Shown here piece after piece: positions 13,741 through 49,065 of a stretch of 64,000 nucleotides of DNA (position 1 is the first letter of the stretch; every line of letters begins with the position of its first letter). The position numbers and the translations under genes are program-made. The notes beneath the pieces are model-generated. The model was not told the origin of the DNA. It did not search any database and worked only from the letters and a program-made list of their open reading frames with translations. The stretch is taken from positions 134,720 through 198,719 of the forward strand of contig SIJG01000172.1 in the NCBI GenBank assembly GCA_023374025.1. Reading direction: 5' to 3'. The DNA comes from Heterodera schachtii (lineage: Eukaryota; Nematoda; Chromadorea; Rhabditida; Heteroderidae).

Positions 13741-13835
13741 CGGGAAGGAGACGGGGTCCAGATGACCTTTGTGCCCTTATGCCTATTTAAAGAGAAAATA
13801 CTATGAAAAAAAACACAAATAAATTTTATTAAAAA
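13741..13835 (+). promoter_or_regulatory. Candidate promoter upstream of the Maverick ATPase gene
   Basis: A GC-richer leader is followed by TATTTAAAG at 13,784-13,792, a TATA-like box about 45 nt before the ATG at 13,836. It is placed by position and composition only. Confidence 0.35.
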
Positions 13836-14450
13836 ATGTTCAACGCGCCGTTTACATTAATTTTATCCGGCGCTACGGGAAGTGGAAAAACTCAATGGTT
13901 ATTAAAACTTTTAAAACACTACAACATGCTGATCGCACCGCCGCCTGTAAAAATACTCTATTGTTATTCCGAGATGAACGATTCTGTGATTGGGTTAATG
14001 AAACAAGGAATTGAGACACATAACGGGGTCCCGACTCAAACATTGGTTCAAAGCATGCCTAAACCCTTGCTTTTGATCCTAGACGACCTGATGCTGAGCG
14101 TAAACAACGATTTTTTGGATTTATTGTTCACCCGAGGCTCCCATAACTGGGACGTAAGTGTGATTTTTGTAACGCAAAGTCTCTATGGACGCAATATTCG
14201 TACCGCAAGAGCCAACAGCCATTATTTGGTTTTAACTCGGAATCCTTCTGGCCAACTCCAGGTCAGAACGGTGGGATCTCAACTCTTTCCGAAGAGGCTA
14301 AATTATTTTATGGAGGCATACAATGATGCAACCAGCGAACCGTTCAGCTATTTGGTTATAAATATGCATCCTAATGCGCCCGAGTCTGAACGTTTAACAA
14401 CTAAAATTTTCCCTAATGAACAACGTGAGGTGTACCTACCAATTGAATAG
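13836..14450 (+). CDS. Maverick/Polinton genome-packaging ATPase
   Basis: A 204-residue P-loop ATPase of the FtsK/HerA type that Mavericks and related viruses are thought to use to drive DNA into capsids. The Walker A loop GATGSGKT is at residues 12-19. Walker B is the hydrophobic run ending ILDD at about 81-84, and a sensor-like VIFVTQSLYG lies at about 109-118. The ATG at 13,836 is the first in frame and places Walker A close to the N-terminus, as usual for this family. The frame is intact to a TAG stop. A 45-base gap separates it from the next gene on the same strand. Confidence 0.85.
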   Translation: MFNAPFTLILSGATGSGKTQWLLKLLKHYNMLIAPPPVKILYCYSEMNDSVIGLMKQGIETHNGVPTQTLVQSMPKPLLLILDDLMLSVNNDFLDLLFTRGSHNWDVSVIFVTQSLYGRNIRTARANSHYLVLTRNPSGQLQVRTVGSQLFPKRLNYFMEAYNDATSEPFSYLVINMHPNAPESERLTTKIFPNEQREVYLPIE

Positions 14451-14495
14451 AGAAAGGGTATAAAAGGTTGAGAAAATCTATTTTTGTCACTACAA

Positions 14496-14846
14496 ATGTA
14501 TGAATTCAGTCCATATATAAGGGAAAACGCAGAATTTTTTAAAAAAATCGCCTCTACGAAATCGGAAAAAAAGAAAAACATTCTTCTGCGAGACGCCACA
14601 GCCGAACAAATATTAGGACTTGTTGAAATTTGTGCAAACATATTAAAGTTCAATTTCAGCCTAAACAGAAGCCAGAGGAAACGGTTGGCCGAATACGCGG
14701 ACTATTATCGTGCAATTGCACGCTCGCGTAGCGAAAAGACAGCGAGAAAGAGATTACAACAGGGAAGTGGTATTGCATTAGGAGCAATATTAGTACCTAT
14801 TCTTGGTGCACTAGCTCAACACTTGGTCGAAAAAATTACGGCCTAA
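14496..14846 (+). CDS. Small basic Maverick protein with hydrophobic C-terminus
   Basis: A protein of about 116 residues starting at the ATG at 14,496. The frame is open slightly upstream but has no earlier ATG. The middle is rich in Arg/Lys with a predicted helical run (about residues 35-90). The last ~25 residues are a Gly/Ala/Leu/Ile/Val-rich amphipathic or membrane-active segment. It sits between the packaging ATPase and the next Maverick gene, so a virion-associated or membrane-active role is plausible by position only. I do not recognise a named domain. Confidence 0.65.
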   Translation: MYEFSPYIRENAEFFKKIASTKSEKKKNILLRDATAEQILGLVEICANILKFNFSLNRSQRKRLAEYADYYRAIARSRSEKTARKRLQQGSGIALGAILVPILGALAQHLVEKITA

Positions 14847-14862
14847 CAGGTGGGAGTTACCA

Positions 14863-15783
14863 ATGATATTTACAAAAAAGATGGTTATGGTGCCAGAAAG
14901 CGAGTATTTGGCCCTCATTAATCTACTGAAAGGGAGCAGCGGCGTATCTCCTCCTCTAGCCGATCCGTTACAGGGCGAGAAAACGCTGCTTGATGTACAG
15001 ATTCAAAGGAATTTGGCAGATCCAAAAACGAACGCAGAAATAAAAATGAAACGTCACTCATGGTTGTACAAACGTAGACACCAGCTAAAAGATATTATTG
15101 AGAACAAACCTCAAAGAGTGATTGTTGAAAATAATGCAGTTACTGCACCAAACGTTGCGCCGTATATGGGCATTCAAAAACAACAAACACCGTCAAATGT
15201 GAATGCACCACACCGCAATTCGACTTCAATTCAATCATTTGGTGGCGTAAGTAAGAGCAACACTGATGTAGAAGAGGACACGGATTTTTCAACTGCTTCT
15301 GATCAGGTTGAGCCTGCTGCTGCTTCTTCTGCTGCTTCGTCGGGGAAAACGCCGCACCAAAAGACGCCAACCGTTTCATTAAGGACCAGCCCGAAAAATT
15401 TCCCAAAAATGATGGGCATTATCGGGAAGGATCACAAAAAATTCGGTGTCAATGCAAGCAGCGGAGAAATTTTGACTAATTTCAATAAACCCGTTTCAGG
15501 TTCTCATTTCACCGAGTCGTTAAAACATTTGACAGGTCAGCGCGATGATGTGCCCAGAGGCCATCGCTTCTTCATTCAGCGCATCTCCAAAGACCCGGAA
15601 ATGATGAAACTGCTTCAAAAAATGCCACAAAGAGGGGAAGGTCGGCGACGCAACACAGTGAAGAAGATGAAAAGGAAAAAAATTGTGCTTGTCAATGTGA
15701 ATTCATCGTCTATAAAAACGCCAGGTTTACACAGAATGGAACCAAAACGCAAATTTAAACCTGAATTATGGGCAAGACTATAA
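14863..15783 (+). CDS. Maverick protein of unknown function, Lys/Ser-rich
   Basis: An intact frame of 306 residues from the ATG at 14,863 to a TAA at 15,781. The N-terminal ~80 residues look ordered (MVPESEYLALINLL near the start, then a basic stretch with WLYKRRHQL). The middle (about 95-185) is low-complexity Asn/Thr/Ser/Ala and probably disordered. The C-terminus is strongly basic (KKMKRKK). Its last 16 bases overlap the start of the integrase gene in another frame, a compact arrangement expected in a virus-like element. Similar unassigned proteins accompany integrases in other Mavericks. I assign no function. Confidence 0.7.
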   Translation: MIFTKKMVMVPESEYLALINLLKGSSGVSPPLADPLQGEKTLLDVQIQRNLADPKTNAEIKMKRHSWLYKRRHQLKDIIENKPQRVIVENNAVTAPNVAPYMGIQKQQTPSNVNAPHRNSTSIQSFGGVSKSNTDVEEDTDFSTASDQVEPAAASSAASSGKTPHQKTPTVSLRTSPKNFPKMMGIIGKDHKKFGVNASSGEILTNFNKPVSGSHFTESLKHLTGQRDDVPRGHRFFIQRISKDPEMMKLLQKMPQRGEGRRRNTVKKMKRKKIVLVNVNSSSIKTPGLHRMEPKRKFKPELWARL

Positions 15784-16889
15784 TTGCACAGCAGCCGACT
15801 GTGGATAAATTATTGGAGCAAATTTATTACGATTTACGCTCACCGGCCAGCTATGCTGGTATGCTAAAAGTTTGGGAGGAGGCCAAGAGAAGAAATCCCC
15901 GAATTTCCTTACATAATGTCTATGATTTTCTTCATCGCCAACGCACTTACACATTGTTTAAGCCACGGAGAAACAAATATCCTAGGCTCAAAACTGTGCC
16001 TAGTGGTTTGCATACAGATTGGCAATGTGACCTGTGCATTATGGATACGTTAAGGGCGCATAATGACGGTTACCGCTACATTTTGGTTTGTATCGATGTG
16101 TTTAGTAGAAAAATTTTTACCGCAGAGTTGGAGTCGAAGAAAAGCGAACACATGATTGAAGCATTTGAAAAGGTGTTCAAAAAAGCCGGTGTGCTGCCTA
16201 ACAAACTGTACAGTGATGCAGGTTTGGAGTTCCAAGCAAAACGGATGATTGAATACTGGAAGCAAAAAGACATAATCAAACACATAATGTACAGTCCTAG
16301 CCTACATGCGGGTGTGGTTGAAAGGGCGAATCGAACACTCAAGGAGCGCTTATACAAATATTTTAGCGAAAATAATACTCTAAGGTGGTTGGGGGTGATA
16401 GATAAAATCGCAAATAATGTGAACAATACTACAAATCGTACCATTGGTACAAGTCCAGCTTCTGTAACCTTTAAGAATGCTGCGGAGTTAAGAAAACGTC
16501 TATATAAAGAACACACCGGTGACAAGGAAATCAAAGTAAACGCAAAATTCAAATTTGGCGATATTGTAAGAATTAGCAAAGAGAAAGGTCATTTTTCAAA
16601 AGGTTACTATCCAAATTTTACTGACGAACTTTTTAGGGTCCAACGTGTAAACAACACAGACCCGCACTCGTATAGAATACGTGATTTGAACGGAGAAGAC
16701 ATAAAGGGAATCTTCTACGATCAAGAACTTGTAAAGACAACGGAAAAGGGTACCTACCGCGCAGAAGTGCTAAAATCGCGTACACGAAACGGAGTCAAAG
16801 AACATTTCGTCCGTTGGGTTGGCTTGTCTGACAAATACAACAGCTGGGTCCGTGATTCAGATTTGGTGAAACGGAGATCATTTGAATAA
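15768..16889 (+). CDS. Maverick integrase (DDE, rve fold) with C-terminal chromodomain
   Basis: 373 residues. The retroviral-integrase catalytic core carries Asp88 (WQCDL), Asp150 (LYSDAG) and Glu185 (GVVERANRTLKE). There are 34 residues between the second Asp and the Glu, so all three metal-binding acidic residues are present. The first ~80 residues are basic, with a possible N-terminal DNA-binding region. Residues about 328-370 (AEVLKSR...FVRWVGL...YNSWV) form a chromodomain-like module that could guide integration to particular chromatin. The frame is uninterrupted and starts inside the end of the upstream gene. In Mavericks this enzyme inserts the element's ends into the chromosome. Without visible termini, this copy has no obvious substrate in cis. 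Confidence 0.9.
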   Translation: MGKTIIAQQPTVDKLLEQIYYDLRSPASYAGMLKVWEEAKRRNPRISLHNVYDFLHRQRTYTLFKPRRNKYPRLKTVPSGLHTDWQCDLCIMDTLRAHNDGYRYILVCIDVFSRKIFTAELESKKSEHMIEAFEKVFKKAGVLPNKLYSDAGLEFQAKRMIEYWKQKDIIKHIMYSPSLHAGVVERANRTLKERLYKYFSENNTLRWLGVIDKIANNVNNTTNRTIGTSPASVTFKNAAELRKRLYKEHTGDKEIKVNAKFKFGDIVRISKEKGHFSKGYYPNFTDELFRVQRVNNTDPHSYRIRDLNGEDIKGIFYDQELVKTTEKGTYRAEVLKSRTRNGVKEHFVRWVGLSDKYNSWVRDSDLVKRRSFE

Positions 16890-16892
16890 ACA

Positions 16893-17648
16893 ATGGAAGA
16901 TTTTTACATTGTGCTTCCTTCAAACACACCTGGTCCAGGAAATACGGCTTCAAATTTTACGGTTAGACTTCCGCATACTTTAGAGCTTGACTCCAAATGG
17001 TCCGTCGCATTATCAGCAATAATCTATCCGTATTCTTTCCCGTCGATCAGTGTGGACGAGGATGACTCTATCTCTGTCAAACTGGTTAATCCTAACTACA
17101 GAGAAGATGCTGGGAATTCTGATGAGGAATCGCAAAAGTTTATCAATTTGTCAGTGAAGATTCCAAATGTACAATTCCTAACTGTACAAAGTTTACAAAA
17201 AACACTGAATCAAATAATCCAGAATGCTTACGATACAAAATTTGGCGGCTCATCATTAAATGATGGTACACCCAACAACAGAGCCAAACGACAAACCGAA
17301 TTGTCAGAAACAGGCGCTGGAGTTATCGAAGTAGAGAATTTCTTCACTCGAAATCCATTTGACTACTGGCAACAGATTGGAGAACTGAGAAAAAAGCACT
17401 ATCAGCTCAGAGAAAGGGTTGAAAAAATGACAAAGGAGTACAATTCCACAAAGGATGGAGAACGAAAAACACTTCTTTCGACGGAGCTCGGGGTCTTTCA
17501 GGGGCGAGAAACATTTCTGAAAGAACATTTGCATTTGATTGAAGAAGAGGCGAAGAAAGACTCATTGACCGTTTCTTTGCCCGATAACCCGACAATTATA
17601 GAGAGCAGCTGGACGGGTGTAGGTCAACTTACCTCCGAGATGTGTTAG
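16893..17648 (+). CDS. Candidate Maverick structural protein, C-terminally disrupted
   Basis: 251 residues beginning three bases after the integrase stop. The N-terminus (FYIVLPSNTPGPGN, then TVRLPHTLELDSKWSVAL) has the beta-rich look of a protein commonly encoded by invertebrate Mavericks and suspected to be a structural or minor virion component. A charged, helical, coiled-coil-like stretch follows at about 165-235. The frame stops at 17,646-17,648, but coiled-coil coding sequence continues in another frame just downstream. The listed C-terminus is therefore probably the product of a frameshift. Role inferred from context. Confidence 0.6.
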   Translation: MEDFYIVLPSNTPGPGNTASNFTVRLPHTLELDSKWSVALSAIIYPYSFPSISVDEDDSISVKLVNPNYREDAGNSDEESQKFINLSVKIPNVQFLTVQSLQKTLNQIIQNAYDTKFGGSSLNDGTPNNRAKRQTELSETGAGVIEVENFFTRNPFDYWQQIGELRKKHYQLRERVEKMTKEYNSTKDGERKTLLSTELGVFQGRETFLKEHLHLIEEEAKKDSLTVSLPDNPTIIESSWTGVGQLTSEMC

Positions 17649-19986: not shown

Positions 19987-20111
19987 TGTTATGTCCAAAT
20001 GTGGACACAACTTAAAATTAATAAAGTTTATTTGTCAGAAGTAAATAATAAAAGTCGGAGTGAAAGACGAGCGATGAGGAAGGAATTCAATAATGAAAAA
20101 GCGAAGTCCAT
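19987..20111 (-). repeat. Internal LTR fragment within the Gypsy element
   Basis: 125 bp nearly identical to 19,471-19,595. It is fused on one side to the integrase tail and on the other to the middle of the reverse transcriptase gene. It marks a recombination or nested-insertion scar. Confidence 0.75.
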
Positions 20112-20813
20112 CAACTTTTGAAAAATGCTTGGCGCACTTTTGACTCCGAATGGCAAACGTTGATACTGAAATAAACCACGGTGCGTGTTTATGCCCACCA
20201 GCTCCTTTGACTCTTCGTCCAATTCGCCTTGGAGGTACGCGTTGCGGAAATCAATTTGACTAAAAACTGTGCAACCCTCCAGTGAGGCAAAAATATCATC
20301 AATGCGTGGCAGCGGGTGGCGGTTTAGTTCCAGACTGTTATTAAGCCCGGTTGCAAAATCAATACAAACCCGCACGTTGCCACATTTCTTCTTAACGACC
20401 ACAATTGGCGCCGCCCATTTGCTGAAGTCCACTGACTTATTGGCACCACAAGCGAGCAAACGGTCGAGTTCTTCGTCGACAGCTGCTTTGGCTGCATGCG
20501 GAACTGGACGAGGCCGGCAGAAAATGGGCTGTGCGTCCGGTTTGAGATGAAGGTGCGCTCGCATCTTTGTGCAAAGACCCAAACTTGAGGAAAAAACTTT
20601 TGAAAATTTTTGCTTTAAATTTTTGGACAATGTGTTTGGATCGTCGCAAACTGTGACGGTTGCCTGTGCGAGGTTGAGTGTCGTAGCGATTGGTCGCTGC
20701 AATGCCACTTCAAATGCTTTGATCCATGGCAATCCGAACAAATTCATTGGTCCGTCCGGGGCGACGTGGCATTTGAGTTGAAGGGTGCAGCCCTGGTACG
20801 TGACTGAACACAC
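20112..20813 (-). pseudogene. Gypsy reverse transcriptase, N-terminal part
   Basis: A minus-strand frame with the Ty3/Gypsy RT landmarks in order: FCRPRPVPHA, WAAPIVVVKKK, VRVCIDF, NRHPLPRIDDI, FSQIDFRNAY (first catalytic Asp), FQYQRLPFGVKSAPSIFQ. It then runs into the internal LTR fragment at 20,111, so the YVDD-type box with the other catalytic Asp residues, the thumb and RNase H are absent. A frame change near 20,810 separates it from the protease. It cannot polymerise. Confidence 0.85.
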
Positions 20814-21800
20814 AAAAACCCCAAAATTTCGAAAAAGTGACCAGAATATGATTTGGCCTTTTTGATGCCACTTATGAGTTTGGGTTTACCCAATTTTTCC
20901 CATAAACCAATCTGAATGACCGACAGACGGGACCCAGAGTCAGCCATCAATGACACATCAATGTTGTTAATCCTGCAGTTGATCATTATCCATTCCGATA
21001 AGTCGTCGTCCGTAATGTTGAAGACCGACATTGTTGCGTTGTACCGTTGTGAATTGGGCCGGGATGAAGATGACGAACGGCATTCGGAGCGGAAGTGGCC
21101 ACGGCGGTTGCACTTTGAGCAAGTTGGCGCCCGTGAACAATCACGCACCCAATGCATTTGACCACAAAACCTGCACGGTGATGGCGGCTTTGGTTGGCGC
21201 TGAAAAGTGGAAGGGCTGCGATTGTTGTTGCTTTGTGCCTTCGTCGATGGGCGCTGCGATGTGCTGCGCTTTTTGTGTTGCTGTTCTTTCAATTTCTGCG
21301 GCCTGAGAGTGATGGCGTTTGTTGCCGAAATAGTTGCCAAAGATTGAGATGTGTTGCGCAATGACAAAAACGCACGGCACTCCTCAGTAAGTTTCTCAAA
21401 AGTGATCACTTCCGGCGGTGTTCTCTTTTTGGCTTCCTCCAAAATCCGTAAACAGCGTTCCCTCAGTTCCCTGTCTTCATCTGAGAGGCCAGTGAGGAAA
21501 ATGAGGGCCTTGATTTCGTCTTTTGTCAAATCCATTTTCGAACTTTCACACATGGCATTCACTTGACTAGCAAAATCTAATGGTGATTGGGAAAATGATT
21601 TAGCTAACTGAAAACACTCATATCGACGAGTGAAAATGCTTTTGGTTTCCCCAAACAAAATTTTAAGCTTATCAATTGTCTGTGCCAATGACACGTTCGG
21701 CATGACGAGCGTACTCCTCCTGACCGAGTTTTCCAAGCAGCAGTCGCACTTGCATTGCGTCTGGAAGGTCCTTGCCATCCACCTGAATAAACGGGCCAAA
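20744..21800 (-). pseudogene. Gypsy gag-protease with two CCHC knuckles
   Basis: The minus-strand frame carries a gag core (KLKILFGETKSIF, YECFQLAKSF), two nucleic-acid-binding knuckles (CRFCGQMHWVRDC, CSKCNRRGHFRSEC; both CX2CX4HX4C-like, the first spaced slightly differently) and an aspartic protease active-site region (LMADSGSRLSVI). The first ~45 residues run out of the LTR remnant, and gag-like sequence there is in another frame, so a frameshift lies near 21,700. The leader and primer-binding site are deleted with the 5' LTR. Confidence 0.8.
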
Positions 21801-22375
21801 GAAATACAGTAACCAGAAAATGGCGTAAATTTCAATATTTAACAATGTACTCTACAAAAATGAATATAAACAAATAAAAAAATATTCCTCAAAAGAATGG
21901 GACCAAAATCATAAGGAAATTTGTAATAAAATTGGAGTTGGCTATGTAACAATTGAAAGATGGAAGAAACAATTTGGAATTAGCAAGAAAAGATTAATGA
22001 AGAAAGAAAAAATGGAAAAATGAAATTATATTGGGAAATTAAAGGGAAAAATCCGAAAATGAGTGATGATTCCATTGCAAAAATGTTGGATGTTTACCCA
22101 CAGAGAATTAAAAAATGAGTGACAAGGAAATTGGAAAAATATTGAAAATTGATAGAAAAAGCATTTTCAATTTAAAATATTATTTTTGGTGTTTTTTCTT
22201 TATTAATTATATAAATTTCCTTTTTTTTGAAAGTTTTCATTACGGTATTAAAAAAAGGACAAAACGAGTAACATTTTTTGCAAATTGTGACAACCCAAAA
22301 TTAGTGTATATAAAATTATATAAAATTAAATTATTTAATAAAAATGAATTAGGAAATAGTAATTTATTTACAACC

Positions 22376-24469: not shown

Positions 24470-26737
24470 TCATTGGTTCCCAAGGTTCGGCAAGGTGCGA
24501 TCATGAAGCCGATCGGTGGCATAGGGCCGAAAACGCGAAGTCCCAAAAGGTCGATTTTCAACTCGACGAGAATCAGCCCGATTTCTCGAAGAGTTCAAAA
24601 ATTGGCCTAGGGATTCAACCCGAATTCCCAATGGATTTGGTGCACCAGAATCCTTACGGTTATCATACTGACGAACCGTTGAAACGAAATTTTTCTTTTG
24701 ATGGGTCCTAATTTTCAAATCACTTAAACCATCCCCCCTTTCTCTCTGTGCAATTGTCCCCAATTGCAAATGCATTTCGCCCTGATTGTGCGGTGCCTTC
24801 TTCGCCGTTGGCTTCCAAATCCTTTTCCTTTGGCCAAATTTCGGTTTTTCTTCCACGATCTGTCGCTGCTTCTCTTGTCCTGCCAATTGGAAAATATTGC
24901 CTTCGCATTTCGGTTGCTTTGGCGATTTGCTCCCTTTCTTCGGTTTTTTCGCTTTTTCTCGTTTCGGTGATCCGCATTCAAATTTGGTTTGAAAAATGAC
25001 GGTCTCGAAATCTTTTCGTTCGGAGCTGGTCTTTTCAAATGGGACCATCACTTCATTCACTTCGTCGTAAAGCTTAAATCCCAAATCTCCTAGGGCATTC
25101 GTTCCCAAAAGCAAATCGAAACCGATCGGTGCCTCCGTGATGTTGAAAACACACATCTTTTGTTCAGCCAGGCCTTTACGATGAATTGGGACCGAAACTG
25201 TGCCAAGGCATTTCAATGGATTTCCGTTGACGTCCAAAATTTTTGGATACGATTTGCAGAAATTTGCCTGCCGCAGATTCAAATTTTTCTCAATGACCAA
25301 TTTGTAGAGTAAATTTGCGCTGATCAGCGAAATTTGGGCGCCACCATCCATCATTGCCTTCGTCTCGAGCCCCAAAACATTGACTTGTGTCGCCATTGTT
25401 TTGCCAACCATGAATGCCATTCCTTCTTTTTTGCTGCAATTCGCTCCAAATTCCTTGAAAAATTCAGCAACTTGCGACTCGTGGCACTTTTCCCGGATGT
25501 AATTGTTTGAACGATGCACTACGTTTCTTTGAAATACAACACAATTTTGCCGAAAATTTCTCGGCTCGATTTGCCTTGACTCTTCATTTATTTGCGGCAA
25601 ATTTGTGTTTTGGCTTGGTCGCGGTCGCAAACAGTTGCGAGAAATGTGACCGTACTCATCGCAATTGTAGCATCTGATGTTGGAATAAGGACGCTGATAA
25701 ACATTGGCTGGACGCGACGAAAAATTCCGATTTTGGTGAAAAATTAGGCCATGGTCGTCATAGCTGTTCATCCGATCAGCATTTCTCGAATTCGTGGCCG
25801 TAAAACGTCTTGCGGCTTTTTGAGTGGACTCAGCACGAGCTGCGAGTGAGACGAAATGGTCGAGGCTCATGCCTGGTGTGCGAGAAAGCTCAAGGTTGAG
25901 TGCCAACTCAGGGTTGCCCATTGCGCGAATCAAAAATTTGATTGCGTATTCGTCACAAAAGTGTTGCGTCAGTCCTACATAAGCTTTTTGAACAAGTGCC
26001 GAAATTCGGTTAGCCAGCGAATCGATTGTTTCGTTTTGGCCCCGTTTAACTCCGACCATCAATTCGTCGAACGCGCCCAGCTGTGATGCGTCCGTTTCCT
26101 CCAGTTGGTTCATCATGTCGCGGCGAATCAGCGCGTACTGGAACGGCTGAGTGGCTTTTGCGGCCTCAAATGCACGTTCTGCACGGCCATACACTTTCGT
26201 TTCCAGCGCATTGATGCGCTTTTTGTCGGGCCACTCCGCTGTGTAGACATCAAATTTCTTGAAAAATCGTCTCACTGCGTCGATGCCCTCCGAACCATTC
26301 AAATCCGGGATTTTTTCCAATACAAGGTGGAATTCGAGGCCTTGCAAAACATCGAAATTTTGGTTGGGGTCGGGCGCATTTTGTTGCGGCTGATAACGTT
26401 GCTGCTCAAAATTTGGCTGTGGACAAGTCGGGGCAGGTGTGATGCGTTCGTTCGCGTATAGAAAGGACTGTGGCAGCGGTAGATGCTTCACCAACGGTCG
26501 CTGTTCTCCAAATTCGCGGTTATCAGTAACCCGAAAATTTGCTTGACCTCCTCTTTGACGCTCCAAATTTTCAAACTCTCGCAAACCTCCATGCATTTGT
26601 TGTCCAATTTCCAATTGTTCGTCGCCATATCGTTCGTCGTTGTCATCATCACCCATCAGTTCCACCTCTGTCCTGTTGGTCGTCGTTCTGCGCATTTCCG
26701 TTCCGCTGATTGTTGTCCCGGCGCCCAATGTCCACAT
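24470..26737 (-). CDS. Retrotransposon gag-protease polyprotein
   Basis: 755 residues uninterrupted. Residues ~140-320 are a gag capsid-like helical domain (FHLVLEKIPDLNG, RRFFKKFDVYTAEW). A single CCHC knuckle CYNCDEYGHISRNC is at about 355-368. A retropepsin-like domain is centred on MMDGGAQISLIS at about 460-472. There the usual D-S/T-G-A signature reads D-G-G-A, so the residue after the catalytic Asp is changed. The C-terminal ~200 residues are Lys/Arg-rich and disordered-looking, with no polymerase domains. An intact frame with near-identical LTRs suggests recent movement. The start at 26,737 is the first Met of a frame preceded by the leader and primer-binding site. Confidence 0.8.
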   Translation of the reverse strand: MWTLGAGTTISGTEMRRTTTNRTEVELMGDDDNDERYGDEQLEIGQQMHGGLREFENLERQRGGQANFRVTDNREFGEQRPLVKHLPLPQSFLYANERITPAPTCPQPNFEQQRYQPQQNAPDPNQNFDVLQGLEFHLVLEKIPDLNGSEGIDAVRRFFKKFDVYTAEWPDKKRINALETKVYGRAERAFEAAKATQPFQYALIRRDMMNQLEETDASQLGAFDELMVGVKRGQNETIDSLANRISALVQKAYVGLTQHFCDEYAIKFLIRAMGNPELALNLELSRTPGMSLDHFVSLAARAESTQKAARRFTATNSRNADRMNSYDDHGLIFHQNRNFSSRPANVYQRPYSNIRCYNCDEYGHISRNCLRPRPSQNTNLPQINEESRQIEPRNFRQNCVVFQRNVVHRSNNYIREKCHESQVAEFFKEFGANCSKKEGMAFMVGKTMATQVNVLGLETKAMMDGGAQISLISANLLYKLVIEKNLNLRQANFCKSYPKILDVNGNPLKCLGTVSVPIHRKGLAEQKMCVFNITEAPIGFDLLLGTNALGDLGFKLYDEVNEVMVPFEKTSSERKDFETVIFQTKFECGSPKREKAKKPKKGSKSPKQPKCEGNIFQLAGQEKQRQIVEEKPKFGQRKRIWKPTAKKAPHNQGEMHLQLGTIAQRERGDGLSDLKIRTHQKKNFVSTVRQYDNRKDSGAPNPLGIRVESLGQFLNSSRNRADSRRVENRPFGTSRFRPYATDRLHDRTLPNLGNQ

Positions 26738-38894: not shown

Positions 38895-39587
38895 ATGAAA
38901 TTATGCCAAATATTTTATTTTGTTTCATTTTTGATCTTCTTAATAAAAATTAATTATGCTGGATCAGAAATGAAAAAACTTCAACAAAAGTCATTTAATG
39001 AGATATTTGGAGAAAAATGGGAAGAAAGAGAAGAAAAACAACGAAATGAGAAGAAAAAAATAGAAATAATTGGGAAATATTATAAAATAAAAGAAAAAAT
39101 CAAGCAAAAAAGAAGAAAATTCCCAAGAAATGAATGGAATAAAATTGAAGTGAAAATAGCAAAAAAGTTTGGGACAAATCGCAAGAAAATTTATGAATGG
39201 ATTAAAGAATTTGGTCTCCAAAAACTCAAATCTTACAAATCAAAAACTTATGAAGAAAAATTAGAAATTGTACAAAAATTCATTGAAATGGTAAATGAAT
39301 TTAAGCAAAATGGAAGAAAATATTCAAAAAAAGAATGGAACCAAAATTATGCCGAAATTTGTAAGAAAATCGGAGTAAGCCATAGAACAATTAAGAGATG
39401 GAAAAAACAATTTGGAATTAGCAATAAAAGAATAACGGAGAAAGAAAAAATAGAAAAAATGAAAATTTATTTGATAATAAAAAGTGAAAATCCAAAAATG
39501 AGGGATAATGAAATTGCAAAAATTGTGAACACTTCTCAACAGAATATTTCCAATTGGAAAAAACAATTTGGAGAAGAAATTTTTTAG
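38895..39587 (+). CDS. Secreted triple helix-turn-helix protein (intact copy)
   Basis: 230 residues, no introns or stops. Residues 1-23 form a signal peptide (MKLCQIFYFVSFLIFLI...). KKLQQKSFNEIFGEKWEE follows, then three tandem ~50-residue modules. Module 1 (about 62-110) has KIAKKFGTNRKKIYEWIKEFGL. Module 2 (about 122-172) has EICKKIGVSHRTIKRWKKQFGI. Module 3 (about 184-230) has NEIAKIVNTSQQNISNWKKQFG. Each fits helix-turn-recognition-helix, as in homeodomain-like or transposase DNA-binding domains, with Trp-(Ile/Lys)-Lys closing the last helix. A signal peptide on a DNA-binding-like protein suggests either export, for example as an effector acting in other cells, or a changed function. The base composition matches the surroundings. 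Family function is inferred. Confidence 0.8.
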   Translation: MKLCQIFYFVSFLIFLIKINYAGSEMKKLQQKSFNEIFGEKWEEREEKQRNEKKKIEIIGKYYKIKEKIKQKRRKFPRNEWNKIEVKIAKKFGTNRKKIYEWIKEFGLQKLKSYKSKTYEEKLEIVQKFIEMVNEFKQNGRKYSKKEWNQNYAEICKKIGVSHRTIKRWKKQFGISNKRITEKEKIEKMKIYLIIKSENPKMRDNEIAKIVNTSQQNISNWKKQFGEEIF

Positions 39588-39946: not shown

Positions 39947-42254
39947 GGTCCGTTGTTCAGTCAGTCTGGGCTTTTAGGAAAGGACGGTGAAAAAGCAAAG
40001 AAGGGTGGCAACAAACGTGGTCTTACGACACCGATGGCATCCAATTTGGACAGGACAACATGGGAAATTTTCAGGAACAAAGACTGGTCAGAGTAAGTGT
40101 TTTTAATAGCTATGCCAAGTTGATGATTTCAATTTTTTCAGGATAATTAGTGGGTACGACTTGAAGAGCAAGAAGGACACCAAAGTAAAAATCATGGGAA
40201 AGGTCTACACGCTGAAGAAGAATGGAATTGCGCTTCCTAAACCGCTGGGGGTCCGTCGCAAGAAAGTAGTTGGACCACAAAAGGACAAAGTGGTAAAACT
40301 ACCAACAGTGTGGGTAAAAATGATACAGATAAAATCTAAATTATTCATTATAGGAACGTTTCGAAGGCTGCGTTGAAATCTAAGCTGCGCGACAAGGAAC
40401 ATGAGATCGAGTTTTTAATTCTTATAGTTGGTACGCTTAAAAAAAAGAGTTTATAAGACTTCGCGCACGTTTATTAGAAGCAGAAGAAGCTAAAGGGGGT
40501 CCGCTACCGCTATTCGTTCAATCTGCAAATGTCAACGATTCCATTATCCAGCCTAATGGGGGTCCGGCTTTTAAGTAAGTTTTGGCATTTTTTAATGCTT
40601 TATTTGTTAAAATTAAGTGCGTCGGATGTGGCATCTCAACGCAATGCGTTTTCGTTATCGAGTCCAACAAATCGATATGGAAAAGAAGCCAAGGGAAACG
40701 CGACAGCTCCTTCCGTGGGTACGGCTGTCGACGGAACACCATCAATTCGACCTCCTTCCCTGGGTGCGTGTGTTCATGCCGCAACACCACCAGCTGCACC
40801 ACCTTCCGTGGGTACGTCTGTTCATGCCGCACCATCAGCTGCACCACTTTCCGTGGGTACGCCTGTTAATACCGCAACAACACCAGCTGCACCACCTTCA
40901 GTGGGTACGCCTGTTCATGCCGCAACATCAGCTGCACCACCTTCCGTGGGTACGCCTGTTCATGCCGCAACAGATGTACATGAATTTGCAAAGCCAAAGC
41001 TGTTTTCGGACGTCAATTTGCATGAACGTTATTATGGGAAAAATTGGTGGAGACATGAGGCTGATTCTGTGGGTCCGGAAAATTTGCAATTTTTGAAGGA
41101 TAGCTTTTTTTTTTGTATTATTGTTTTTAACATAACATCATTTTTATGAATTTAGGACGGTGAATGGCTATCGGACCAGGAAATCACTGACTATTTGGAC
41201 TACTTATCTGAAAAATGCAAAAAAGAGGGTTCGGTTCCGAAGGATATTCCATATAAGGTGGTTCCACTGGTTGAACTGATGCCATATTACGCAAAAGCGC
41301 CCGAACAAATTGAAGAGGCCTTTCTACATCGCCTTCGAGCAAGTATTAACGTTTCCTTATAAAATATATTTAACACATAGTTATTAAAAGGTCGGGAAGA
41401 TGATTTGGCAGTCCAATGGGCGCACAAATTTATTGACAGATGCAAACTGATCACTGTTTTACACTCAAAAAACCACTTTATCGCGGATTTAGTTCATCTG
41501 AGTCATTTTGTGGGTACGAATGTATGCAATATACACTTCTTCGACAGCCTCAATAAACAGCGCAGTCAAATAATGTAATATTTTTAAGCAATTATTAAAG
41601 ATTTCTTGAGTATTTTAGGGTCAAAAAGGACGAAAGACTCTGGAAGAACTACGCGGAGCCCATTTTTAAATACTTGGGAATTTTACGTGAACGTGGGTAC
41701 GAAAATGGAGTAACCATCTCAATTGTGCTCAAACCATGTCCAGTTCAACTAAATTAGTGGGATTGTGGTGTGATGGCCTTGGCATGTGCTGAGGTATGAC
41801 CGGTTTTTGTTAATGTATGCAAATTTTTTAGGAAGTGTTGCGGGTCAGAAAACTTTTTGTGGGTACGGACACGGCCTGGGGCTTTTCGCAAGAGCACACG
41901 GCGTTTTACCGTCGTTGGATCCATCAGACACTGAGCATGTCAAAGAAGGCACCGAAAGATGATGACGATGACATGGACAACATCTCTGTTTTGGAGGGTT
42001 CGGAAATGGACCGTTGAACAGAGACTCAGCAAGCGGAAAATGTTGGTACGTTGAAGGATACAGCTACAGAGGGTTCGAAAACGGATGGGAAAGATGATGC
42101 AGAGCAAGTTACGAGAAAACGCCCTGGGGGTCCGCATGTGCTCAAGCCGCCCAAAGAAAAAAAGAGGAAAGGTCGACGAAGGACCGAAGTGAGCCGTCTT
42201 ATTGAAAATGCATTGGCAGTGAATTATGAAAAGAAGAAGAAGAAAGATAACTGA
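39947..42254 (+). pseudogene. Spliced ULP1/C48-type cysteine protease gene with in-frame stops
   Basis: I infer nine exons: 39,947-40,092; 40,142-40,309; 40,354-40,410; 40,458-40,574; 40,618-41,098; 41,156-41,342; 41,391-41,574; 41,619-41,793; 41,832-42,254. Exon 5 has Ala/Pro-rich repeats (PPSVGTPVHAAT). Exons 7-8 carry the C48 protease landmarks: His in KNHFIADLVHL, Asp in FFDSL, Gln in PCPVQLN and Cys in WDCGVMAL. C48 enzymes cleave SUMO or similar modifiers, and related proteases occur in transposons and viruses. A TAG (41,755-41,757) falls between VQLN and WDCG, and a TGA interrupts exon 9 at 42,015-42,017. The tail is basic and NLS-like (KEKKRKGRRR). The intron at 41,099 lacks a GT donor. 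The 5' end is not found. It is a pseudogene unless the stops are read through or are assembly errors. Confidence 0.7.
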
Positions 42255-43204
42255 GGGTTCGGTTGTTACACATATGCTACTAATTTGTTTTTTTATCTGA
42301 TTTTTTGTAAAACATATGAATTATAAAACTTTCCTCAATAATCTTTAGTTTACAAATCTAATTTTATATATATATTTCTTTCTTAAAATTAATTTATATT
42401 AACTAATACTTTTTCGAGTAACCATGAAACGTGGCTGTTTTCATTGCAACGGCAAACATTTTGTCCGGGCGTGCCCACATATCAATCGTTTAGGGGGTCC
42501 GAAACGAGAAAGGTGTTTCAGATGTGGCACTTGGGAGCATAGCCCATCTGAATGCTTAAATCGCCATCCTTCGTCCTATTGTAATTTTTTTCATCTATAT
42601 ACTTTAATTAATCTTATTAGTTTGTGCCATCATCTGTTGGAACTGCGGAATTTCGGGTCATAAGGACAACAACTGTAGAGCAGCCTATTTATGGTATAAT
42701 TTGTCTAAAGCCTACCAAACAAACTTATTATTAAGTCACATTCCCGAGTGTGGCTGCCAATTCCAGTTTATTGTGGCAAATGGCAACGGAGTGGGTACGT
42801 CGCAGCCAAGCCACCCACATAAAGCAGACAACGGAGTGGGTACGTCGCCACCAAGCCACCCACATGAAGCAAACAAAGGAGTGGGTACGTCGCCACCAAG
42901 CCACCCACACGAAGCAGACAACGGCGTGGGTACGTCGCCACCAAGCCACCCACATGAAGCAGACAACGGAGTGGGTACGTCGCCACCAAGCCACCCATAA
43001 GAAGCAGACAACGGAGTGGGTACGTCGCCACCAAGCCACCCACATGAAGCAGACAACGGAGTGGGTACGTCGCCACCAAGCCACCCACATGAAGCAGACA
43101 AAGGAGTGGGTACGTCGCCACCAAGCCACCCACATGAAGCAGACAACGGAGTGGGTACGTCGCCACCAAGCCACCCACATGAAGCAGACAACGGAGTGGG
43201 TACG
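40150..43204 (+). other. Field of a 9-bp motif G-N-GGGT-N'-CG with complementary N/N'
   Basis: Outside the tandem array I find 22 sites. GTGGGTACG: 40150, 40715, 40808, 40853, 40901, 40946, 41510, 41693, 41859. GGGGGTCCG: 40247, 40495, 40558, 42126, 42493. GAGGGTTCG: 41225, 41995, 42069, 42253. Near matches: GTTGGTACG (40427, 42043), CTGGGTGCG (40760), GTGGGTCCG (41069). Ten more GTGGGTACG sites lie at 45-bp steps from 42,791 to 43,196. They occur in three reading frames, in an intron (40,427) and across a stop codon (42,253). No exact copy was seen by eye elsewhere in the window. Confidence 0.8.
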
Positions 43205-43696
43205 GCCTCTGCTTATTTGGACATCGACGATTATTACTTGGTTAACCAAAACGACCCTGACTCCGACTTCATCTCACCTTCGGATTTCATCGAACAACAG
43301 GCTGAAATTCCAACAAAGGAACCGAATAAAGCCGACGACCTTGTAATTTTTATAATAGGAATTTTTTAGGTGTGCATGATTGTGGCACCGTGCAACCATG
43401 CATATGTTTGGTTTCGCTTTTTATTTTTCCTTTTGCAACAGCCCTGCTATTTATGACCCTTTTTGTCTGCCCCACCCACATTTTATTCTTGTGATCACCT
43501 CCCTGTACAAATTCCATCTAACTTTCCGTGTTTATTTTTAGAATGGTCCCTGTGCCTAAAAAGGACACGGCAGAAGTCGGGACCGGCATTTGTCGACAAG
43601 GCATTCTTGCCCAATTACGGTGCCAATTTATCGCAAAAATTGGCACAATTCGCCAAATTTTCCAGCGAAGGCCAAAGGACGAAAAAAAAGGAATGA
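42424..43696 (+). pseudogene. CCHC zinc-knuckle gene with tandem-repeat domain
   Basis: Exons inferred: 42,424-42,580; 42,621-42,693; 42,736 to about 43,338; and probably 43,541-43,696. Three knuckles sit in the first two exons: CFHCNGKHFVRAC, CFRCGTWEHSPSEC and CWNCGISGHKDNNC. A Cys-rich stretch (IPECGCQF) follows, then nine 15-residue repeats (NGVGTSPPSHPHEAD-like), an acidic segment (YLDIDDYYLV, DPDSDF) and a basic terminal exon (PNYGANLSQKLAQF). CCHC knuckles bind single-stranded nucleic acid in retroelement gag and RNA-binding proteins. A TAA replaces His at 42,998-43,000 inside the fifth repeat, so the allele shown would be truncated. It starts 170 bp after the protease gene and shares the 9-bp motif, which suggests a linked pair. 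Confidence 0.6.
42786..43200 (+). repeat. 45-bp tandem repeat, nine full units
   Basis: Units of 45 bp carry one GTGGGTACG each, at 42,791 plus multiples of 45 up to 43,196. Unit sequence is nearly uniform. Differences include CAG for CCA in unit 1, AAA for GAA in unit 1, AAC/AAA alternation, and the stop-creating change in unit 5. The length is a multiple of three, and several frames on both strands stay open across it. Confidence 0.9.
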
Positions 43697-43960
43697 AAAA
43701 TTGTTTTTTTTCATTTTTCAAAATTTTGAAGAACAATTACACTTAAAAATATGTAATTTTTCTTTTTTTTTTAAATTTTATATTTATATTTATTTTTTAT
43801 TTTATTTTTCTTTGTTTCTGCTCATTTTTTACATTGAATTCTTTTTTATTTGTGGTTTTGAATTGGGTTTTTCATGAAAATAATTGTAAAAGTTTGTTCA
43901 GATAAAAAAAATGCTATTTGAATTTTCATCTTTTTTCCTTTTAGCAGATTTAATCACCCT
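43541..43960 (+). repeat. Duplicated segment: terminal exon plus 3' flank
   Basis: Begins at the terminal exon (KSGPAFVDKAFLPNYGANL...) and continues through the 3' flank to about 43,960 (TTCCTTTTAGCAGATTTAATC). It matches 49,170-49,640 in the same orientation with moderate divergence, so the exon and flank were copied together. Confidence 0.65.
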
Positions 43961-45236: not shown

Positions 45237-45936
45237 ATGGAAATATTACTATTATTCTGTTTAATTTTAATTATAATTGTAAAAATTAGTCCAATTGAAT
45301 CAAAAGAGAATAAATTACATGAAAAATCATTTGATGAAATATTTGGAGAAAAATGGGAAGAAAAAGCACAAAATGAACAGAAGAAACGTGAAAAAATAAG
45401 AAAATATTATAAAATAAAAGAGAAAATTAAGCAAAAAGGAAGAATATATATAGCAAAAGAATGGAATAAAATTAATTCGAAAATAGCGAAAAAATTGGGG
45501 ACACACCGTACAAAAATTTATAAATGGATCAAAGAATTGGGACTTAATCAAAAAATACATAAAGTCACAAACCAAAAGTGATGAAGAAAAACATGAAATT
45601 GTGCAAAAATTCATTTCAATGAAAAACGAATATAAAGAAAAAAGAAAATATTCCTTAAAAGAATGGCATCAGATTTATGTGGTAATTTGTAAGAAAATTG
45701 GAGTTATTTATGGAACAATTGAAAAATGGATGAAACAATTTGGCATTAGCTGCAAAATAACGGAGAAAGAAAAATTGGAAAAAATGAAAATTTATTGGCA
45801 AATGAAAAAAGAAAACCCAAAAATGAGTGACAAGGAAATTGCAAAAATATTGAAAATTGATAGAACAAGCATTTCAAAATGGAAGAAACAGGAGAAGAAT
45901 GAAATGAACCTTGATAAAATAGATTTTCTAAATTAA
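45237..45936 (+). pseudogene. Secreted triple-HTH family copy with one frameshift
   Basis: ATG at 45,237. Signal peptide MEILLLFCLILII..., KLHEKSFDEIFGEKWEEK, module 1 (KIAKKLGTHRTKIYKWIKELGL). A one-base shift near 45,565 moves the linker into the next frame, which carries module 2 (ICKKIGVIYGTIEKWMKQFGIS) and module 3 (KEIAKILKIDRTSISKWKKQ) with a longer, divergent end (NEMNLDKIDFLN). One correction would restore length, so this is a young pseudogene or a single sequencing error. Confidence 0.8.
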
Positions 45937-48211: not shown

Positions 48212-48886
48212 TTAGAACAATTCTTCTCCAAATTGCTTCTTCCAATTACAAATATTCTGTTGAGAAGTGTTCACAATTTTTCCAATTTCATTATCATTCA
48301 TTTTTGGATTTTCAATTTTTATTTGCCAATAAATTTTCATTTTCTCCATTTTTTCTTTCTCCGTTATTTTACAGCAAATGCCAAATTGCTTTTTCCATCT
48401 CCTAATTGATCCATAGCCAACACCAATTTTCTTACCAATTTCGGCATAATTTTGGTCCCATTCTTTTGGTGAATATTTTCTTTTTTCTTTATATTCTTTT
48501 GTCATTACAATAAATTTTTGCACAATTTCAAATTTTTCTTCATTAGTTTTATTTCTTTTCTGATTAAGCCCTAATTCTTTAATCCATTTATAAATTTTCT
48601 CGCGATTTGTCCCCAACTTTTTTGCTATTTTCTGTTCAATTTTATTCCATTCATTTCTTGGGAATTTTCTTCTTTTTTGCTTGATTTTTTCTTTTATTTT
48701 ATAATATTTGCCAATTATTTCTCTTTTTTTCTGCTCATATCGTTGTTTTTCTTCTTTTTCTTCCCATTTTGCTCCAAATATTTCATCAAATGACTTTTGT
48801 TGTAATTTATTATTTTCTGATTCAATTTGACTAATTAAGGCAAATATAATTAAAATTAAACAGAATAATAACAGTAATAATTTCAT
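48212..48886 (-). CDS. Secreted triple helix-turn-helix protein (second intact copy)
   Basis: 224 residues without interruption. Signal peptide MKLLLLLFCLILIIFALI.. (1-22), NKLQQKSFDEIFGAKWEEKEE, then module 1 (QKIAKKLGTNREKIYKWIKELGL), a shortened linker (NQKRNKTNEEKFEIVQKF), module 2 (EIGKKIGVGYGSIRRWKKQFGI) and module 3 (NEIGKIVNTSQQNICNWKKQFG) ending EELF. Compared with the copy at 38,895 it has a type A promoter and signal peptide but the same final module, so copies have exchanged parts or diverged unevenly. Being intact in a cluster of dead relatives suggests selection or recent duplication. No function is recognised beyond predicted export and DNA-binding-like folds. Confidence 0.8.
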   Translation of the reverse strand: MKLLLLLFCLILIIFALISQIESENNKLQQKSFDEIFGAKWEEKEEKQRYEQKKREIIGKYYKIKEKIKQKRRKFPRNEWNKIEQKIAKKLGTNREKIYKWIKELGLNQKRNKTNEEKFEIVQKFIVMTKEYKEKRKYSPKEWDQNYAEIGKKIGVGYGSIRRWKKQFGICCKITEKEKMEKMKIYWQIKIENPKMNDNEIGKIVNTSQQNICNWKKQFGEELF

Positions 48887-49065
48887 TTTTCCGGGATAAT
48901 ATTCCCAAATATGAATTTATATAATGTTTTTTTCGTAGATATTTAGTCCATTAAAAGCCTTTTTTATTCACATGAAAAAGCTCAATTCTACTGAATTTGC
49001 GTAAAAAAATCTCCAATCCAATTTTTTGTAAATATAAATGATTTTCTTCCCTGCTGATCACATTT
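48887..49065 (-). promoter_or_regulatory. Type A upstream module of the intact minus-strand gene
   Basis: On the plus strand the order away from the gene is TTTATTCACATGAAAAAG, CTCAATTCTACTGAATTT, then TTCTTCCCTGCTGATCAC. It is the reverse complement of the type A arrangement. Confidence 0.5.

Follow-up and report, generated by a model that had tools for sequence, protein, structure and literature searches.

The locus described here raises the question of why a single 9-bp motif, G-N-GGGT-N'-CG with N and N' complementary, saturates two adjacent genes in a 64-kb stretch of the Heterodera schachtii genome (hereafter, the window). On both strands of the window, the pattern GNGGGTNCG has 31 matches versus 0.71 expected, a number reached by 0 of 100 shuffles, and 29 of these lie between positions 40150 and 43204, every one on the + strand. 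N and N' are complementary at 28 of the 29 island sites, the sole exception being GTGGGTCCG at 41069, and the two matches beyond the island (26905 on the + strand and 46295 on the - strand) are non-complementary. Ten of the 28 complementary words lie in the second of two tandem arrays and 18 lie outside it, exactly as the initial annotation had counted; it had also claimed four near matches, under no stated rule, for which the recount gives three one-mismatch forms on the + strand (GTTGGTACG at 40427 and 42042, plus the site at 41069). On this strand of the island, 28 exact words stand against 0.033 expected from 30 shuffles and three one-mismatch words against 0.8 expected; the - strand carries no exact word and a single one-mismatch word. 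When both arrays are left out, the three words GTGGGTACG, GAGGGTTCG, and GGGGGTCCG are alone among 9-mers in occurring at least four times in the dispersed part (5, 4, and 4 times in some order versus 0.004-0.007 expected). Chance or base composition as the source of the words is excluded by the shuffles, the exact versus near counts, and this 9-mer census, and the saturation of the two-gene island is confirmed as a real observation. The shared sequence is limited to 9 bp, in that a single base never occurs in more than 18 of 35 dispersed sites at any flanking position; this 35-site set, which also served for the folding analysis below, includes sites from other loci, takes one site per array, and leaves out 41069, the copies on contigs C12 and C15, and one site in a duplicated exon on C23.

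The features of the island are listed in Table 1. Gene 1 comprises, in order, N-terminal exons, a repeat-rich middle, and a weak Ulp1/C48-like peptidase region. Below E 5, a genome search with the N-terminal exons matched the window alone. The match to Pfam Peptidase_C48 (14.5 bits, E 0.033) is under the cut-off of 20.7 bits, and the His, Asp, and Cys motifs are recognisable by eye only. In the window copy, an in-frame TAG (41755-41757) lies ahead of the presumed catalytic Cys motif, WDCG, which reads NFCDCG in the paralogue on C15 and NCCDCG in that on C12, and another stop is found at 42015 in a shifted stretch. Zinc-knuckle profile matches of gene 2 are under cut-off as well. Elsewhere in the window, about 22 kb from the island, A32-like ATPase and integrase ORFs with a near-cut-off chromodomain occupy 13833-17645 on the + strand, which we take to be Maverick/Polinton-like. 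Retrotransposon-like ORFs are present on the - strand at 20031-21838 (judged by eye) and 24473-26737, the latter encoding a CCHC knuckle and weakly matching an aspartyl protease. Three genes that resemble one another and have a hydrophobic start are located at 38895-39587, 45237-45936, and 48215-48916; the first of these adjoins the island and matches helix-turn-helix families. A dispersed repeat at 43450-43700 accounted for 37 of the 41 matches listed in the genome DNA search for island copies, many of them on contig C51.

Table 1. Genes, words, and tandem arrays of the island (positions in the window). Gene and exon limits are those suggested by the translations.
Feature	Position	Strand	Reading and remarks
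Gene 1	39950..42254	+	Several exons; putative limits
Word GTGGGTACG	40150..40158	+	S-G-Y
Word GGGGGTCCG	40247..40255	+	L-G-V-R
Word GGGGGTCCG	40495..40503	+	GGP
Word GGGGGTCCG	40558..40566	+	GGP
First tandem array	40709..40972	+	Period 45 or 93 bp; 5 words at 40715, 40808, 40853, 40901, 40946
GTGGGTCCG, non-complementary form	41069..41077	+	VGP; present in C12 too
Word GAGGGTTCG	41225..41233	+	EGS; kept in C12 and in the C19 fragment; exon part absent from C15
Word GTGGGTACG	41510..41518	+	VGT; between presumed catalytic His and Asp; C15 GTGGGTAGG, C12 deleted
Word GTGGGTACG	41693..41701	+	R-G-Y; C15 GTGGATACG
Word GTGGGTACG	41859..41867	+	VGT; C15 GTGGGTCCG
Word GAGGGTTCG	41994..42002	+	EGS
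Word GAGGGTTCG	42069..42077	+	EGS; C12 GAGTGTTCG, C15 GAGAGTTCG
Word GGGGGTCCG	42126..42134	+	GGP
Word GAGGGTTCG	42253..42261	+	Spans stop codon and untranslated end of gene 1; exact word in C12 and C15 too
Gene 2	42424..43369	+	CCHC zinc-knuckle protein with C-terminal 15-residue repeat array; exon limits inferred
Word GGGGGTCCG	42493..42501	+	GGP; in zinc-knuckle exon; C15 two mismatches
Second tandem array	42784..43204	+	Unit 45 bp, 9.4 copies, 10 words GTGGGTACG (42791 to 43196)

Across the genome (178.5 Mb in 356 contigs), GNGGGTNCG occurs 9113 times, a background of about 0.05 per kb versus 9.5 per kb in the island, and 25 control loci (78.7 kb) contained two matches, neither of them complementary. 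Complementary N and N' were found at 29 of 100 genomic GNGGGTNCG places sampled (the first 100 listed, all on the + strand of C1), which rules out complementarity as a general rule of the genome, versus 14 of 15 dispersed window sites (P 3e-7, for sites that are not independent and among which a few forms recur). Also on C1, at 1475842-1476478 (L073 2343-2979), an apparently unrelated tandem array with a period of 159 bp carries the non-complementary GGGGGTGCG. The word GTGGGTACG is present 234 times in the 178.5 Mb, below its reversed control (509), and GAGGGTTCG is present 438 times. The complete listing of GTGGGTACG resolves into 177 singles and 13 clusters at gaps of at most 10 kb: 19 matches on C172, the contig of the window (which spans 134720-198719), 12 within 6.4 kb on C111, four on C12, four on C23, and nine pairs, with no further cluster of more than two anywhere in the genome at this gap size. 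Among the 202 matches outside C111 and C172, which still include paralogues, about 2.3 pairs would be expected at random. Eleven of the 13 clusters are wholly one-stranded, including those on C172 (19/19), C111 (12/12), and C12 (4/4); the exceptions are C23, with two divergent pairs, and C24, which is mixed. A genome-wide word is ruled out for GTGGGTACG by the count of 234 versus 509 and by the clustering in few loci. The initial annotation had anticipated sites in a few loci, which is where GTGGGTACG is concentrated, and the contrary outcome that it had named, unrelated genes across the genome carrying the motif about as densely, was not borne out by the GTGGGTACG scan.

The cluster on C111 belongs to a Helitron helicase gene, two pieces of which match Helraiser (7lcc_A, E 6.1e-13 and 7.6e-6) and which contains the Pif1_2B_dom of PIF1-type Helitron helicases at 37.1 bits (cut-off 23.9). 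A third, upstream piece gave no Helraiser match and one N-terminal piece gave no Pfam match; this copy carries a frameshift. A 1.1-kb piece of the locus and the island have the word itself in common but show no other homology. The roughly 2.3 kb covered within the 6.4-kb cluster contains 13 words, 12 GTGGGTACG and one GCGGGTGCG, and the pieces L085-L092 are uninformative on density because they were chosen for containing GTGGGTACG. The pairing rule for N and N' proposed from the window also holds on C111, in a gene unrelated to those of the island; with GCGGGTGCG, the fourth form, present there, all four complementary forms are represented. The pairing suggests palindromic or single-stranded contact. 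The carriers on C23 comprise eight complementary words in three forms (five on the - strand and three on the + strand), partly in a duplicated exon, and the reading frames there resemble a coiled coil and CCHC by eye. For the coiled-coil piece, no Pfam family scored above cut-off, and a genome search gave no further relative. Counted on the sense strand, exact words and one-mismatch words number 28 and 3 in the island, 9 and 3 on C12, 5 and 5 on C15, and 5 and 0 in the 1.1-kb piece of C111; at a locus on C98 with a CCHC relative, the numbers are 1 and 6.

The Helitron can be compared with its relatives as protein, the words in those relatives being deduced from residues. VGT at site 477 corresponds to VHE in a Meloidogyne relative at equal length, VGT at site L085 to HEA in Helraiser without gaps, and SGCG at site 865 to SGDA or SGNA in cyst nematode relatives, again at equal length. 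Because relatives have other residues at equal length, the words at these three sites replaced code, and 9-bp insertion is ruled out there by the alignments. Two other sites are uninformative, 1053 because VGT is ordinary in cyst nematode relatives and 654 because gaps interrupt the alignment with several relatives. In Heterodera trifolii (P0003), word-type residues are present at all three of the compared sites that it covers (654, 865, and 1053). As judged from these alignments, the word on C111 apparently overwrote the original code, which points to a recognition signal or a copying process. The insertion unit proposed in the initial annotation is unsupported, given the equal-length replacement at the three Helitron sites and the point substitutions by which words differ among the paralogues described below.

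Whether the words act as nucleotides or as peptides can be approached through their reading phase. Of 25 coding sites tallied by eye, phase 0 accounts for 18 (10 of 13 from the window, 8 of 12 from C111; P about 1e-4); the tally left aside 41069, 42253, the array words except 40715, L090 on C111 (frame unclear), and C23. This excess would be accounted for by selection on a peptide of the type [VEG]-G-[TSP] (a linker or a protease site, for instance), an explanation that is largely refuted by phase and codons and that we consider very improbable. The other seven sites lie in the two remaining phases and read SGY, RGY, QWVRN, LGVR, or SGC, one more word covers a stop codon and untranslated end, and the phase-0 words use one fixed codon set, two phase-0 peptides of the same type being present in other codons (ENVGT and VVGPQ, by eye). 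Because the words occupy three phases and a stop/untranslated site and use fixed codons, the constraint is probably on nucleotides, not peptide. The protein would act as a filter on word sites, and an excess in phase 0 is expected if protein tolerance filters sites. Folding of RNA at the 35 sites gave a GGGT exposure of 0.27 versus 0.31 for randomly placed words (sd 0.035) and formation of the N:N' pair at 0.060 versus 0.036 (sd 0.024), which is not significant. Pairing past the word ends was observed at 19 of the 35 sites at the first flank (G9) and at 13-15 thereafter, about chance level; an RNA hairpin with an exposed GGGT loop is unsupported by folding. A role of the words as splice sites was set aside after a by-eye inspection.

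At least two further DNA copies of the window locus exist, on C15 (84%) and C12 (90-92%), both partial, as found with 40 of 136 candidates scored; in a peptide search with the Ulp1-like region, all nine candidates were scored. C19 carries a lone exon fragment in which GAGGGTTCG is still present. Across the three copies, homology of the window unit to C12 and to C15 stops at different points, and no word-free relative of the window genes was found. The H. schachtii protein niasHS_015604 (P0001) equals the C15 paralogue in every aligned exon by eye, with its first exon in a different frame, and was the only homologue of the Ulp1-like region at E <=10 in two protein searches (837 and 1102 candidates), which are confined to candidates of similar length that have short exact words in common. 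Comparable dispersed words sit at homologous places in the three paralogues and differ by substitutions, never by the gain or loss of 9 bp; word-bearing exon parts are missing whole in two cases, that with 41225 from C15 and that with 41510 from C12. The second array differs between paralogues, with 10 word units in the window and two in C15. In C12, 1 of 99 word bases (11 sites) is changed versus 152 of 1615 bases elsewhere (P 0.004; P 0.048 against GC-matched 9-mers), and in C15, 6 of 72 (8 sites) are changed versus 220 of 1490 (P 0.14; GC-matched 0.36). Relative to GC-matched sequence, conservation of the words is thus marginal in C12 and no different in C15, and strong present-day conservation is unsupported by these rates. 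Outside words, divergence at codon positions 1/2/3 is 0.109/0.061/0.109 in C12 (non-coding 0.096) and 0.148/0.134/0.191 in C15 (non-coding 0.133). Because divergence is rather flat over codon positions, the paralogue copies appear to diverge in a nearly neutral manner; a trace of coding constraint may account for the lower rate at second positions versus C12. The common ancestor presumably had a near-perfect set of words that has decayed since.

The main rival to a recognition word is that short-patch copying or editing, akin to the HVD editing put forward for HYP effectors, wrote the 9-bp words from site to site in a few target genes. Such a process would be in keeping with the exact 9-bp limits, the codon-phase excess, and the equal-length replacement of quite different Helitron triplets (VHE or HEA for VGT), and precise shuffling of motifs at specific loci is documented for the HYP genes of cyst nematodes (PMC11228951). 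At 41746-41765, a cluster of changes found only in the window makes AATTAGTGGG, a 10-mer also present at word site 40150, together with a stop codon; these changes might represent a word that is as yet only partly written, or simply coincidence. However, dispersed words are never gained or lost whole among the three paralogues, where point substitutions are found instead, one Helitron site is possibly a single residue step from a relative (SGDE in P0010 and SGYE here, by eye), and copying leaves the complementary pair unexplained, such that we regard it as doubtful.

Two further origins can be weighed against the same evidence. The islands might derive from a foreign genome, viral or symbiotic, in which such words are frequent everywhere, and would now be decaying. 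The islands are higher in G+C than their surroundings (52% in the C111 piece) and the divergence of the paralogues looks near-neutral, both consistent with such an origin, whereas the introns, as predicted from the sequence, are short and AT-rich. Moreover, the Helitron is matched best by proteins of nematodes, and word residues are absent from Meloidogyne P0005 (477 and 865) and Globodera P0004 (865). Viral contigs gave 48 pattern-matching stretches, none confirmed as a relative of the Ulp1-like region, for which the two protein searches, confined as above to candidates of similar length, returned H. schachtii P0001 only; we consider a foreign origin improbable. The words could alternatively be relics of old tandem arrays spread by unequal crossing over, each the conserved heart of a unit whose flanks have diverged. 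The two arrays of about 45 bp with one word per unit would fit this origin, yet dispersed words have no strong common flanking bases and some are located within conserved domains that lack repeats, the PIF1 helicase of C111 among them, making it quite improbable. At the three Helitron sites, relatives of equal length with other residues contradict it directly.

The explanation that we tentatively prefer, as possible but short of probable, is a word recognised at the nucleic-acid level, built up in active mobile-type genes and decaying in dead copies. The 9-mers would be copies of one sense-strand word, G-N-GGGT-N'-CG, carried by a two-gene Ulp1-like/CCHC unit, a Helitron, and a coiled-coil/CCHC gene. 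A common factor would read the word in the DNA or RNA of these genes, favoring molecules with many copies; words would have settled over existing code wherever the protein tolerated them, and dead copies, such as the paralogues on C12 and C15, would have shed them through ordinary mutation. This reading draws on the excess of exact over near words, the single strand per gene, the recurrence in an unrelated gene, the N:N' pairing, the 9-bp limit, the spread over three phases and a stop codon, the phase-0 excess, and the equal-length replacements in the Helitron; the weak present-day conservation, the folding results, the differing ends of homology to C12 and C15, and the G+C richness of the islands count against it. 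Here, we infer the existence of the reader, an advantage of the words, the near-perfect ancestor, and past or present mobility of the window unit. A more specific form of the recognition word, which we think unlikely, is a eukaryotic uptake-like word: a factor common to unrelated cyst nematode mobile elements would recognise G-N-GGGT-N'-CG in single-stranded DNA or RNA, N:N' would close a tiny stem, and elements would evolve dozens of copies over their own protein code. If true, a single signal would let different elements share one machinery. Unrelated genes of a single animal in which a nucleotide word takes precedence over the protein code would imply a sequence-reading process in cyst nematodes; in the portions of open-licence literature covered, no description of such a process and no text with two of the three words together were found. 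With their many natural replicates, the loci lend themselves to a search for the reader, and the process may bear on locus-specific variation in these parasites.

Several known systems resemble the recognition word in part. Subterminal transposase-binding repeats of DNA transposons lie near the element ends; they too consist of a short cis word repeated within the DNA of a mobile element, but the words described here run through coding regions on one strand. The dispersed packaging signals of RNA viruses are many short sense-strand words inside genes with a possible stem pair, and the words share these properties; in contrast to that system, no virus is seen here and exposed loops are unsupported by folding. 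In the HYP effectors of potato cyst nematodes, HVD editing involves short, precise, locus-specific motif units in one in-frame central domain (PMC11228951). Cyst nematodes, short precise units, and locus specificity are common to both systems, whereas HYP units are longer and the 9-bp words are found in several exons, in three phases, in an untranslated end, and in other genes; the island words are not in-frame units in a single central domain. The DNA uptake sequences of Pasteurellaceae and Neisseriaceae are short, present in many copies, partly in coding sequence, and explained by molecular drive (PMC1939737). Those sequences are bacterial, genome-wide, and devoid of a covarying pair, whereas the words here occupy a few loci of an animal genome and GTGGGTACG lacks genome-wide over-representation. 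Like DNA uptake sequences, they are nevertheless a short, many-copy word, partly coding, of which exact copies exceed near ones (28 versus 3 in the island).
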